This document shows, one piece after another, positions 7,291-12,706 of a stretch of 24,737 bases of DNA. Source of the DNA: a virus; IMG/VR virus record IMGVR_UViG_3300033149_001582, positions 1 to 24,737 of that record; one strand, given 5' to 3'. Position 1 is the stretch's first letter. Each line of letters starts with the position of its first letter. The notes beneath the pieces were generated by a model. The model was not told where the DNA came from. It did not search any database and worked only from the letters and a program-made list of their open reading frames with translations. The translations under genes and the position numbers were made by a program.

Positions 7291-8046
7291 ATGAAACCAG
7301 AATCATTAGGTGATTTCCTAGCATGGAAACCACCACACATAACCGAGCTAATAGGAAGTGGTATCTTGATACCTCAAGGCAAGATTATCCTGTTCGGCCC
7401 TTACAAGTCATGGAAGTCTATGACCTCCATAGACCTAGCTTTCAAATTATCCAGCGGTAAACCTTGGCTGGGGTTCAGAACCACCTTGTCCACCGTGCTG
7501 GTGATACAATTAGAGATTCCCAAAGCAGCCTACCAGAAGCGGGTTAACAAATATTGCTTTGGTAATAAGCTATCACCATTGGATAACCTATACTTTGTTA
7601 CCATACGCAATCTGAAGCTGGATAAAGGTTGGGGTGTAGCCCTGTTAGAACAGTGGATAGCTGAAATAAAACCACAGGTTATCGTAATTGACCCGATATT
7701 CAAGGTTATCTCAGGTCGCCTAACCGATGAATATGATGTAAGACAATTCACTGACAGGATAGATGAGATTATAGAAAAACATAAGGTCAGCTTTGTCCTC
7801 ATCCATCATGAAGGTAAGGACTGGATAATAGAAGGAGAACGCTATGATAGAGGAGCTGATGCAGCCTTTGGTTCAGCTGTATTTGGTTGGTGGTGTGATT
7901 CTTCCATAGAGTTGAGGACTGAAACGGAAGGAGGTAACATAATCAATGTGAGTTTTCCATTACTCCGACTGGCTGAGGATGAAATAAAGTCAGTGAGGAT
8001 AGAGATAAGCAGGAATAATCTGGTGTTTATAAACAAAGGAGGTTGA
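7291..8046 (+). CDS. AAA_25 / RepA-like RecA-fold ATPase, probable replicative helicase
   Basis: A 251-residue RecA-fold ATPase. Walker A is GPYKSWKS (residues 36-43), Walker B is VIVIDP with Asp134, and the LIHHEGK segment (H172-H173) corresponds to the histidine loop conserved in RepA and AAA_25 proteins. Plasmid RepA members are hexameric 5'-3' DNA helicases, and phages without a DnaB gene often use one. No primase domain is fused and none is seen nearby, so priming may depend on the host or a gene outside the window. It lies at the end of the small-gene operon, upstream of the replication operon. Confidence 0.85.
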   Translation: MKPESLGDFLAWKPPHITELIGSGILIPQGKIILFGPYKSWKSMTSIDLAFKLSSGKPWLGFRTTLSTVLVIQLEIPKAAYQKRVNKYCFGNKLSPLDNLYFVTIRNLKLDKGWGVALLEQWIAEIKPQVIVIDPIFKVISGRLTDEYDVRQFTDRIDEIIEKHKVSFVLIHHEGKDWIIEGERYDRGADAAFGSAVFGWWCDSSIELRTETEGGNIINVSFPLLRLAEDEIKSVRIEISRNNLVFINKGG

Positions 8047-9557: not shown

Positions 9558-9691
9558 TAGTAACAATTTACCAAGGTGAGGATGGCTACCCAGTAGTTAC
9601 TGTCCAAGGTGACACTATAGATAGCCCTGCGGCAGTGGCTATGGCGTACTTGGAGGCACTAAAAGTATTAAAGGAGGCGTTAAACAAATGA
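9554..9691 (+). CDS. 45-aa hypothetical protein
   Basis: Bounded by ATGA overlaps on both sides (9554-9557 and 9688-9691), which strongly supports translation. It has two short strands (VTIYQGEDGY, VVTVQGDTI) and one helix (AAVAMAYLEALKVLKEAL), a compact alpha/beta miniprotein. Function unknown. Confidence 0.65.
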   Translation: MIVTIYQGEDGYPVVTVQGDTIDSPAAVAMAYLEALKVLKEALNK

Positions 9692-10446
9692 CCGAACTAA
9701 CCCCAGAGCAATTACTAGCCCAACTACAGACAAGAGGATTTGAGGCGGGAGGATTCCGTTCACCATTAAGGCATTTCAGAGGAACATTAACCAGCATTAC
9801 TGGCTCAATGGTTCAACGTGGTAACATGCCTCAAGCCAAACTGGAGGTCACCTATAATTTTGATAAGCCAGGAGCACCAATCGAGGTATTCGCATCTACA
9901 GAACCCTATCCATTTCCTATAGCCCAAATATCCATGATGCACTCTAACCGTGAGAAGTCCAACATGGGTGTGTTGGGTGCATCCATAGACAAAATCATAA
10001 ATGCTGATGTGGACAGTAATGCACCACAGGCACAGGTTAAGAACCAGGACTTCCTCATTGGCAAGGTTCAAGAGTGGAAGATGACACCAGGCCACATGAT
10101 GTGGGATAATGACAAACAGGCTGAAACACCCAGAGATGCTTGGGAAGTGGTCTATGTTGAGGGTGTTGGTGGCACTCCTCATTCGGGGGTGGCTACACCT
10201 ACACCGGCTGATGCACCAGCTCCAACTGCTACTCCGACTGGAGTAACTCCTATACAACAAGCTCTCAACCTGCTGGATGGTAAAACCCAACAGGACTGGA
10301 ATAACCTAGTATTCCAAGACCCGTTGGTGAAGGGTGACTCAGCCCTGGTTAGTAAAATCATCGGTGGGGCATTTATTACAGAACTAGAAGCTGTTGGTAT
10401 GGTTACCAAGGATGACAATGGTGTTTATCACGTGAAGAAGGATTAA
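9688..10446 (+). CDS. putative single-stranded-DNA-binding-like protein with Pro-rich linker
   Basis: A 252-residue protein whose ATG overlaps the previous stop, with AAAGGAGG upstream. Residues about 1-155 look like a beta-rich domain (FRGTLTSITGSMV, AKLEVTYNFDKP, FLIGKVQEWKMTPG, WEVVYVEG), compatible with an OB-fold-type binding protein. A linker rich in Pro, Ala and Thr (about 165-190) joins a C-terminal helical domain of about 60 residues. Its place before the recombination nuclease and Sak4-like ATPase is where phages often carry an SSB. The assignment is by context and shape; no sequence signature proves it. Confidence 0.5.
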   Translation: MTELTPEQLLAQLQTRGFEAGGFRSPLRHFRGTLTSITGSMVQRGNMPQAKLEVTYNFDKPGAPIEVFASTEPYPFPIAQISMMHSNREKSNMGVLGASIDKIINADVDSNAPQAQVKNQDFLIGKVQEWKMTPGHMMWDNDKQAETPRDAWEVVYVEGVGGTPHSGVATPTPADAPAPTATPTGVTPIQQALNLLDGKTQQDWNNLVFQDPLVKGDSALVSKIIGGAFITELEAVGMVTKDDNGVYHVKKD

Positions 10447-10457
10447 CAATTGAATAG

Positions 10458-10679
10458 CTTGCTGGTGTGGAGAAACTTAATTTAGTGTAGTGGCTAGGAA
10501 TGAATCTTCTGGCGGTTGACGAAGCCGAGGGAGTTATGAAAAAGAGTCCTAGTCCTCGGAACGAGCCAGCAAGTCTGCCAGCTACCCAGAAATTGGGCAA
10601 CGCAACACTGGGCTGGTGTCCTGAAACGTGCTGAGTAGTAGTAAGGCGGAGAGGCTACTAGCTGGCACCCCTTCGGGGG
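10458..10679 (+). ncRNA. structured RNA of about 220 nt in the leader of the RecB/Cas4-like nuclease gene
   Basis: This gene-free gap folds almost completely on the plus strand. Domain 1 is closed by CTTGCTGG (10458-10465) with CCAGCAAG (10566-10573). Inside it CTAGGA (10494-10499) pairs with TCCTAG (10547-10552) and CCGAGG (10525-10530) with CCTCGG (10554-10559), a crossing arrangement, that is, a pseudoknot. Domain 2 is closed by TGCCAGCTA (10576-10584) with TAGCTGGCA (10659-10667) and holds CCCA/TGGG, ACAC/GTGT and GTAG/CTAC hairpins. A CCCC-TTCG-GGGG tetraloop hairpin (10668-10679) abuts the ribosome binding site of the next gene. No known RNA family matched by eye. It could be a cis-regulator, a processed RNA or a ribozyme. 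Confidence 0.8.
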
Positions 10680-10691
10680 AAGGAGTTAAAA

Positions 10692-11582
10692 ATGTTAGAA
10701 TGGTTCAAATGCCCTGACGGTGAAATAACCACGGTTAAGGATTGCCTAACCAAATGTAGAATGGATGAACGCTGCCTCACATTACCAACACTGACCCTAA
10801 TGGCTGAGGAGAGAGAGTGGAATGGAATACCATCGACTACCCAATTATTAAATGGTACTATGTATGAGTTCCTCAAGTTAACTCAGCCTTATGCTGTTGA
10901 CCCTGATAGTAGAGCCTTTATGTTGGCTGGAACCAAACACCACAAATCATTAGAGGAAGTGGCTAAAGAACTAGACTTGCCTTCAGAAATTCCACTCAAT
11001 GTAGACAGGGATATATTTGACCTACTAGAGCCAGAGAATGGTAATCTGGTACTAACCGATTATAAGCTGTGGGGTAGTTACCGAGTGGCTAAGGCTCTAG
11101 GCATAGTTGAGGTAGGCAAGAGGCCTGACCCAACAGGTGCAGTTTATAAAGTCTCTGGTAAATGGGGTAAGGCTGGTGAACCCAAAATGGTTCCAGTATT
11201 CCAGTCTATGCCTCAAGAGGTTGATGTATTCAATGAGGAATTACAGTTAAACCGCTACCGTATAATGTTGGAAGAGCTGGGTATATCCATATCCAAAATG
11301 CAACTACAGGTTACAGTGAGGGATGGTGGATTGGCCGTAGCTCGTGGTAGAGGATTGGATAGGAACATCTATAGGATACCAATTAGTATGTTAGCTAACC
11401 AAATAGTTATTGACATTTTTGATGCTAAGGCATTGGCATTACACAAGGCACTAGAGGATGGTAGCTGGACTGAACCTTGTAATGACAGAGAATGCTGGGA
11501 TGGAGCCAGATGCAAAGGTTATTGTGAGGTAGCTAGGTATTGTCCTAAAGGTTTATTATATCAGGAATCAGTCAATGAGTAG
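10692..11582 (+). CDS. RecB/Cas4-family PD-(D/E)XK nuclease with cysteine clusters
   Basis: A 296-residue protein. The nuclease core shows GTKHH (His83-His84), the acidic stretch VDRDIFD (105-110) and the LTDYK motif (Asp123, Lys125), followed by QLNRYR, the motif IV of RecB/Cas4 exonucleases. Four N-terminal cysteines (7, 18, 22, 28) and five C-terminal ones (263, 268, 274, 278, 284) could hold an iron-sulphur cluster, as in Cas4 and AddB. Such phage enzymes resect DNA ends for recombination with a Sak4-type annealase or ATPase, encoded just downstream. The start follows AAGGAG immediately after the structured RNA. Confidence 0.85.
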   Translation: MLEWFKCPDGEITTVKDCLTKCRMDERCLTLPTLTLMAEEREWNGIPSTTQLLNGTMYEFLKLTQPYAVDPDSRAFMLAGTKHHKSLEEVAKELDLPSEIPLNVDRDIFDLLEPENGNLVLTDYKLWGSYRVAKALGIVEVGKRPDPTGAVYKVSGKWGKAGEPKMVPVFQSMPQEVDVFNEELQLNRYRIMLEELGISISKMQLQVTVRDGGLAVARGRGLDRNIYRIPISMLANQIVIDIFDAKALALHKALEDGSWTEPCNDRECWDGARCKGYCEVARYCPKGLLYQESVNE

Positions 11583-12551: not shown

Positions 12552-12706
12552 CTGTGGAAAACAAGCTCACCAAATCAATTTTAAGCACGATGAAATTAGC
12601 AAGCTGTACTAAACTATTCACAAGCTCAAAAACAAGCGTGAAAGCGATTCTGTGCAGTCTGACAGCAAATCGAGACTGACCAAACAGGAGAATAGGAGAA
12701 ATAGGA
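12552..12706 (+). other. island of about 155 bases without a recognisable gene
   Basis: This gap interrupts an otherwise overlapping operon. It has ACAAGC three times (12561, 12620, 12632), two of them in the 9-base repeat ACAAGCTCA. It also has TGTGGAAAA (12553-12561) and CTATTCACA (12614-12622), each one mismatch from a DnaA box in opposite orientations, and a CAGTCT/AGACTG hairpin (12655-12678). A 41-codon GTG frame (12554-12679) spans it but encodes a Ser/Thr/Lys-rich peptide unlike its neighbours. It may be a small RNA, an origin or a poorly conserved gene. Confidence 0.4.

Follow-up and report, generated by a model that had tools for sequence, protein, structure and literature searches.

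Viral exoribonuclease-resistant RNAs (xrRNAs), which belong to eukaryotic RNA viruses, consist of tandem compact pseudoknotted units with a ring-like fold around the 5' end. In ToxI, the RNA antitoxin of type III toxin-antitoxin systems, adenines of loop 2 contact stem 1 (PMC8860590), and phage PhiTE carries pseudo-ToxI, a phage-borne mimic of such an antitoxin RNA (PMC5449768). The 5' region of GOLLD is its less conserved part (PMC12286853), and RNA anti-CRISPRs (Racr) are phage-encoded RNA mimics of CRISPR repeats directed against host defence (PMC10651486). Here we compare with these systems an array of structured modules found in a viral sequence of 24,737 nucleotides (the window, meaning the whole stretch that was analysed). 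The same kind of array occurs on about 38 distinct viral contigs, with one to six modules each (types A, B, C and D/E), and comparison of their sequences makes it almost certain that they constitute an undescribed phage RNA family, a claim that takes in both the common structure and the exchange of cassettes between phages.

The array of the window fills an intergenic gap of 245 bases (10447-10691) between two plus-strand genes (9688-10446 and 10692-11582), and all helices given in the preliminary description, together with its two stem-closed domains, were found again at their positions. Module A (10457-10574, plus strand), assigned from the stem table, covariation and folding energy, comprises a closing stem P1 of ten pairs and an H-type pseudoknot. 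The 5' strand of P1, GCUUGCUGGU (10457-10466), pairs with GCCAGCAAGU (10565-10574), and relatives covary at this stem. Inside it, crossing helix a joins GCUAGGA (10493-10499) to UCCUAGU (10547-10553) and crossing helix b joins CCGAGG (10525-10530) to CCUCGG (10554-10559), all on the plus strand; the equivalent of helix a is supported in relatives and that of helix b covaries there. The crossing pair claimed earlier, CUAGGA (10494-10499) with UCCUAG (10547-10552) plus CCGAGG with CCUCGG, is indeed the best set of crossing helices in the interior of module A. Module B (10576-10667, plus strand) is closed by nine pairs between UGCCAGCUA (10576-10584) and UAGCUGGCA (10659-10667), and holds a CCCA..UGGG hairpin after the 5' strand of this stem and an inner stem of the GUAGU/GCUAC type. 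It is followed by a CCCC(UUCG)GGGG hairpin (10668-10679, plus strand), also present in two relatives (L001 and L004), which adjoins the ribosome binding site AAGGAG (10680-10685) ahead of the ATG at 10692.

Taken alone, the window sequence suggests structure without proving it, and its chance-corrected signal is modest, since the MFE of the entire gap does not stand out (z = -0.99) and only that of module A by itself is better (z = -2.27, compared with -0.91 for module B); on the whole-gap value, single-sequence folding energy was rejected as proof of structure. The stacking energy of the crossing pair was -25.6 kcal/mol; dinucleotide-shuffled sequences gave -19.8 ± 2.5, with 3 of 150 equally good, and the chain of closing stems was equalled in 2 of 100 shuffles (z = 2.6). 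The decisive evidence for structure is comparative and comes from the aligned relatives considered below. A coding explanation of the gap was rejected, because the interiors are free in length and are replaced among relatives. The statement that the genes of this operon otherwise overlap is only roughly true, as a second gap exists at 12552-12706. A short ORF in that gap (about 44 aa; ..NKLTKSILSTMKLASCTKLF..) is under the 50-aa cut-off of the ORF listing and is conserved in L001, L003 and L004.

Relatives were drawn from one public viral collection, and all of them are uncultured. A search with the downstream protein returned 16 viral contigs, in seven of which an alignable element precedes the gene, and the total of about 38 was reached through A-B junction, A-start and B-A variant patterns together with a search for the upstream protein family. 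Candidates in which module context was absent were discarded on inspection (L032, L047, L051, L052, L056, L058-L060, L062-L064, L066 and L067, and most of the pattern matches L099-L132); L047, the sole match in a scan of a genome collection with the A-B junction pattern, was a chance match in which the structure is absent. No array was found by BLAST of named phages and plasmids. At gathering thresholds, no family of Rfam 15 matched the window or 13 array contigs, in agreement with the first reading of the sequence, which had recognised no known RNA class, and a permissive Rfam search gave snoRNA matches at chance level only. In the literature searched, no RNA family of this kind is described. 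Searches for tRNA and tmRNA genes found none on the array loci scanned; a tRNA-like stretch (..GGTTCAAGTCCCTCCTACGGCACCA) lies shortly 5' of one array (L001:4660-4735), where ARAGORN called no tRNA. In two contigs the interval from the SSB-like gene to the nuclease gene carries only a single plain hairpin of 12-13 bp (L044:3739-3787 and L045:3751-3797), which may represent the array in a reduced or an ancestral state, and a third contig shows another design at the same operon position, with a closing stem of 17-18 bp (AGCGTTCTGGATAGGATA/TATCCTATTCAGAACGCT) around about 100 nt (L016:4681-4818).

Arrays are chains of modules in the fixed order A-B-C-D/E, with units of 50-250 nt and closing stems of 9-10 bp, and for the majority of the 21 arrays tested these chains of closing stems stand above dinucleotide shuffles, the longer arrays having z values between 3 and 6.6. 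Type A is closed by the pattern (U)AGCUUGCUGG ... CCAGCAAG, type B by UGCCAGCUA-CCCGAAAGGG ... CUAC-UAGCUGGCA and type C by GCCUGAGCC-GAGG ... GUA-GGCUCAGGC, and type D with its variant E has an outer stem of free sequence followed by (C/G)UGGGGU ... GCCCCA(G/C). A typical A interior runs UGUC, 5' strand of helix a, optional hairpin, AACUAUCGG (5' strand of helix b), optional hairpin, 3' strand of helix a, NGAAR and 3' strand of helix b (CCGAG), an order that, as a predicted fold, is that of a classic H-type pseudoknot. The interior in the window is a variant which has neither AUCGG nor NGAAR and keeps the crossing order with sequences of its own; its crossing fold is suggested by the shuffle test and by relatives with other interiors, and not by close homologues with the same interior. 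A Chi-like GCTGGTGG at a few module A starts was judged a coincidence. Module E of two contigs (L006:4463-4523 and L009:3867-3929) holds GCAGGAGTTGAACCTGC, which resembles the complement of the tRNA T-arm.

The compact nested pseudoknots and the conserved NGAAR joining segment could also be read as those of an array of self-cleaving ribozymes. An HDV-like fold was considered on account of several A modules that carry GGCGAAA before the last strand, in the manner of J4/2, and was rejected because the first joining base varies (C, G or U) and the order of hairpins differs. As neither this base nor the strand order is like that of HDV-like ribozymes, and as no Rfam ribozyme family matched the window or the 13 array contigs, we consider self-cleavage highly improbable.

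For the comparative analysis, stem alignments were gap-free and anchored by eye on core motifs, and some candidates had first been chosen partly for pairing, so that percentages of pairing in the stems are biased towards pairing; more trust is due to the controls with slid and shuffled strands and to the variety of pair types. Across relatives, double changes occur at four of nine pairs of closing stem A, at three pairs (21 cells) of closing stem B and at seven of ten pairs (47 cells) of closing stem D, whose covariation score of 0.66 compares with 0.16 for shuffled and 0.05-0.19 for slid strands. Helix b, anchored by motif and position only, showed 17 double-change cells, a number reached in 0 of 500 shuffles, and two unconserved positions flanking its core pair above permuted partners (p = 0.010 and 0.004). 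Helix a, anchored by position only, gave a permutation p of 0.0004 (n = 17). The A interior of L065 is nearly identical to the one that comes first in L021; of the eight sites that distinguish them, six make up three compensatory double changes within helix a. Across 34 A interiors, the mean z of the crossing fold against shuffles was -1.18, a combined figure that is not to be taken as a probability because the interiors are related. Covariation at the closing helices and at the crossing pair, whose absence the preliminary description had named as the observation that would count against it, is therefore present, and its proposal of a selected structured RNA is borne out by a sense-strand, pseudoknotted RNA whose relatives covary.

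The strand is indicated by imperfect pairs, among which G-U outnumbers A-C by 38 to 13, pointing to RNA of the sense (plus) strand. This excess argues against a site acting at the DNA level in replication or recombination, where hairpins in ssDNA would be acted on by SSB, annealing protein and nuclease and cassettes would move like integron attC sites. Such a site would account for the position of arrays beside SSB-like, RecT and perhaps Rad52-like genes and for the exchange of cassettes at conserved inverted repeats, but GNRA-like and UUCG loops and an orientation that is constant relative to the operon also speak for RNA, iterons and recombinase-type core sites were not seen, and we hold a DNA site to be unlikely.

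Regarding the genomic context, the gene 5' of the array in the window (9688-10446, plus strand) encodes a protein of 252 aa whose fold is predicted to resemble OB-fold ssDNA-binding proteins. A Foldseek search with its AlphaFold model (pLDDT 78) gave the ssDNA-binding OB-fold protein PrgE as top match (probability 0.97, E 5e-3), followed by many SSB and RPA chains, with no match under E 1e-3. Homologues of this protein (25-85% identity) are encoded directly 5' of the array in about 20 contigs, and the array usually lies 3' of such an SSB-like gene or of another ssDNA-annealing gene. One array follows a RecT gene (L131, PF03837 E = 1.5e-6), and others have in their vicinity a candidate Rad52-like gene (L048, E = 0.01, below cut-off), a Gp3-like gene (L050) or ClpP (L035); the last is at the 3' end of its operon, with convergent genes opposite and no same-direction gene downstream. 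The gene 3' of the array in the window (10692-11582, plus strand) encodes a PD-(D/E)XK nuclease-like protein of 296 aa with conserved cysteines, which neighbours the array only in some relatives. Its naming as RecB/Cas4-like has gained weak support from PF12705, matched by 4 of 14 homologues (best E = 9e-4), and its predicted structure was too poor a model for a search. Phage Sak4 annealing proteins often belong to Pfam family AAA_24, which a downstream protein of the window matches below that family's cut-off (E = 5e-4). Elsewhere in the window, the product of 2256-2777 matches PADLOC type II methyltransferase models (E = 3e-40) and is possibly encoded by a phage self-methylation gene.

The preliminary description had placed the RNA in the leader of the nuclease gene and had considered a riboswitch-like regulator of the nuclease. 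A cis-regulatory leader of this kind, riboswitch-like or protein-controlled, would agree with the position of the array just 5' of the nuclease gene in the window and in certain close relatives and with the UUCG hairpin that adjoins the ribosome binding site. However, the gene 3' of the array differs among relatives, the nuclease gene lies elsewhere in several of them, and many nuclease homologues have no array; because the following gene varies and the array of L035 ends its operon, the nuclease leader is the wrong frame. A riboswitch with a conserved pocket does not fit either, since interiors are replaced wholesale even between near-identical phages; neither a constant position before one gene or pathway nor a conserved ligand pocket was found. 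We therefore regard control of the nuclease as very unlikely, and the SSB-like, RecT and other neighbours, together with the position in L035, indicate that the array belongs to a recombination neighbourhood and not to the nuclease gene.

Changes in the arrays can be followed between closely related phages. L018 and L037 share 97.3% identity over 7.6 kb, yet their A interiors are wholly different within an identical stem; modules B, C and E are identical, and no segment other than the A interior has been replaced. Identity between these two dips at only one other place, in the DNA polymerase gene of L018 (reverse strand, 7778-7860), where 39 bp are duplicated in tandem and in frame. In L031 and L061 (about 84% identity) the A and B interiors differ and the third module is the same, and the SSB-like genes of L006 and L009 share 89% identity as far as the first stem strand, with similarity returning at the last module. 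Conversely, single modules are common to contigs with non-aligning flanks, namely B of L005/L049, C of L065/L091, A of L021/L065, B of L050/L124, A of L003/L027 and D of L005/L026. Replaced interiors in near-identical phages and lone modules common to contigs with non-aligning flanks indicate that interiors move module by module, and on this sequence evidence the interiors are swapped as cassettes within constant stems with the predicted fold preserved, and recombination at the conserved stems would be the simplest route.

Replacement of this kind could be tolerated by an intercistronic mRNA element that acts in cis, in which tight stems and pseudoknots would block exonucleases or direct processing and so set unequal expression of the flanking genes; if topology alone matters, interiors are free to drift or to be swapped. 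In keeping with such an element, closing stems are conserved above interiors, one plain hairpin takes the same place in L044, L045, L089 and L092, and arrays are always co-directional and intercistronic, usually 3-30 nt past the stop codon and shortly 5' of a strong ribosome binding site. It is less easily reconciled with the unpaired motifs UGUC, AACUAUCGG and NGAAR, which survive across swapped interiors and go beyond what a roadblock needs, with the array of L035 that has no same-direction gene downstream, or with a rate of exchange in the array far above that of change in the flanks. We consider a cis-acting element, the main rival of the reading favoured below, possible but doubtful.

The reading that we favour is that of a trans-acting, diversifying RNA, to which we assign a probability of about 0.4 on the sequence patterns. 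The array would be transcribed within the recombination operon, and its modules would bind proteins of the host or the phage in trans, most likely serving as a varying set of decoys for, or inhibitors of, an antiviral nuclease or toxin of the host. Recombination between phages would diversify the modules: the conserved stems would give the short stretches of homology, and the machinery could come from the adjacent genes for SSB, annealing protein and nuclease. The locus looks to be under pressure to vary because fold, stems and motifs are kept while interiors are replaced quickly and shared across phages. More tentatively, we propose an RNA cassette-variation locus, comparable at the RNA level to antigenic variation, in which ordered slots with constant stems would take interchangeable pseudoknotted interiors from other phages and so outpace host factors; with the same reserve, these factors might recognise the array RNAs or be inhibited by them. 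That phages would diversify an RNA is suggested by outer stems that stay constant as the insides are swapped between phages. Against decoys stands the conserved order A-B-C-D/E, needless for a bag of decoys, although slot-wise homologous exchange would also keep this order, and rapid exchange could mean weak constraint on the interiors and not selected diversity. Control of the nuclease, a DNA site and a ribozyme are less likely than both the trans-acting role and the cis element.

Overall, the arrays add an undescribed class of structured RNA in dozens of uncultured phages, with an unusual mode of RNA evolution in which fold and outer stems are kept and whole interiors are swapped even between 97%-identical phages. 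If conflict with the host is the cause, this would amount to an arms race at the RNA level with a bacterial target, and the natural interior swaps offer ready-made test pairs.

Compared with known systems, the arrays share with viral xrRNAs the tandem arrangement of compact pseudoknotted units in one transcript, but differ in strand topology, in their phage setting and in matching no Rfam family. With GOLLD and ROOL, large ornate RNAs that phages and prophages carry, they have in common a multi-domain, pseudoknotted structure; they differ in that they match no Rfam covariance model, that modules are exchanged singly and that tRNA genes were not found on the array loci scanned. ToxI also consists of tandem RNA units with an H-type pseudoknot, which in the arrays is found in module A (helices a and b), and its contact between adenines and stem (PMC8860590) recalls the NGAAR segment. 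ToxI units, however, are near-identical repeats of about 35 nt with single-stranded tails beside a toxin gene, whereas the arrays have units of 50-250 nt, closing stems of 9-10 bp, several types and replaced interiors, and their modules differ in sequence and type where tandem near-identical short repeats would be expected of a ToxI. Next to the array of the window no toxin gene of the toxN, cptN or tenpN type was found, the neighbours being SSB-like, nuclease-like and AAA_24, and PADLOC gave no toxin match among ten window proteins scanned, both flanking genes included. Like Racr, the arrays would be phage-encoded RNA, but no repeat-like unit was recognised in them. The nearest precedents for phage RNAs under pressure to vary are antitoxin-RNA mimics and RNA anti-CRISPRs, and it is these, together with a locus that looks pressed to vary, that lead us to favour a trans-acting, diversifying role.
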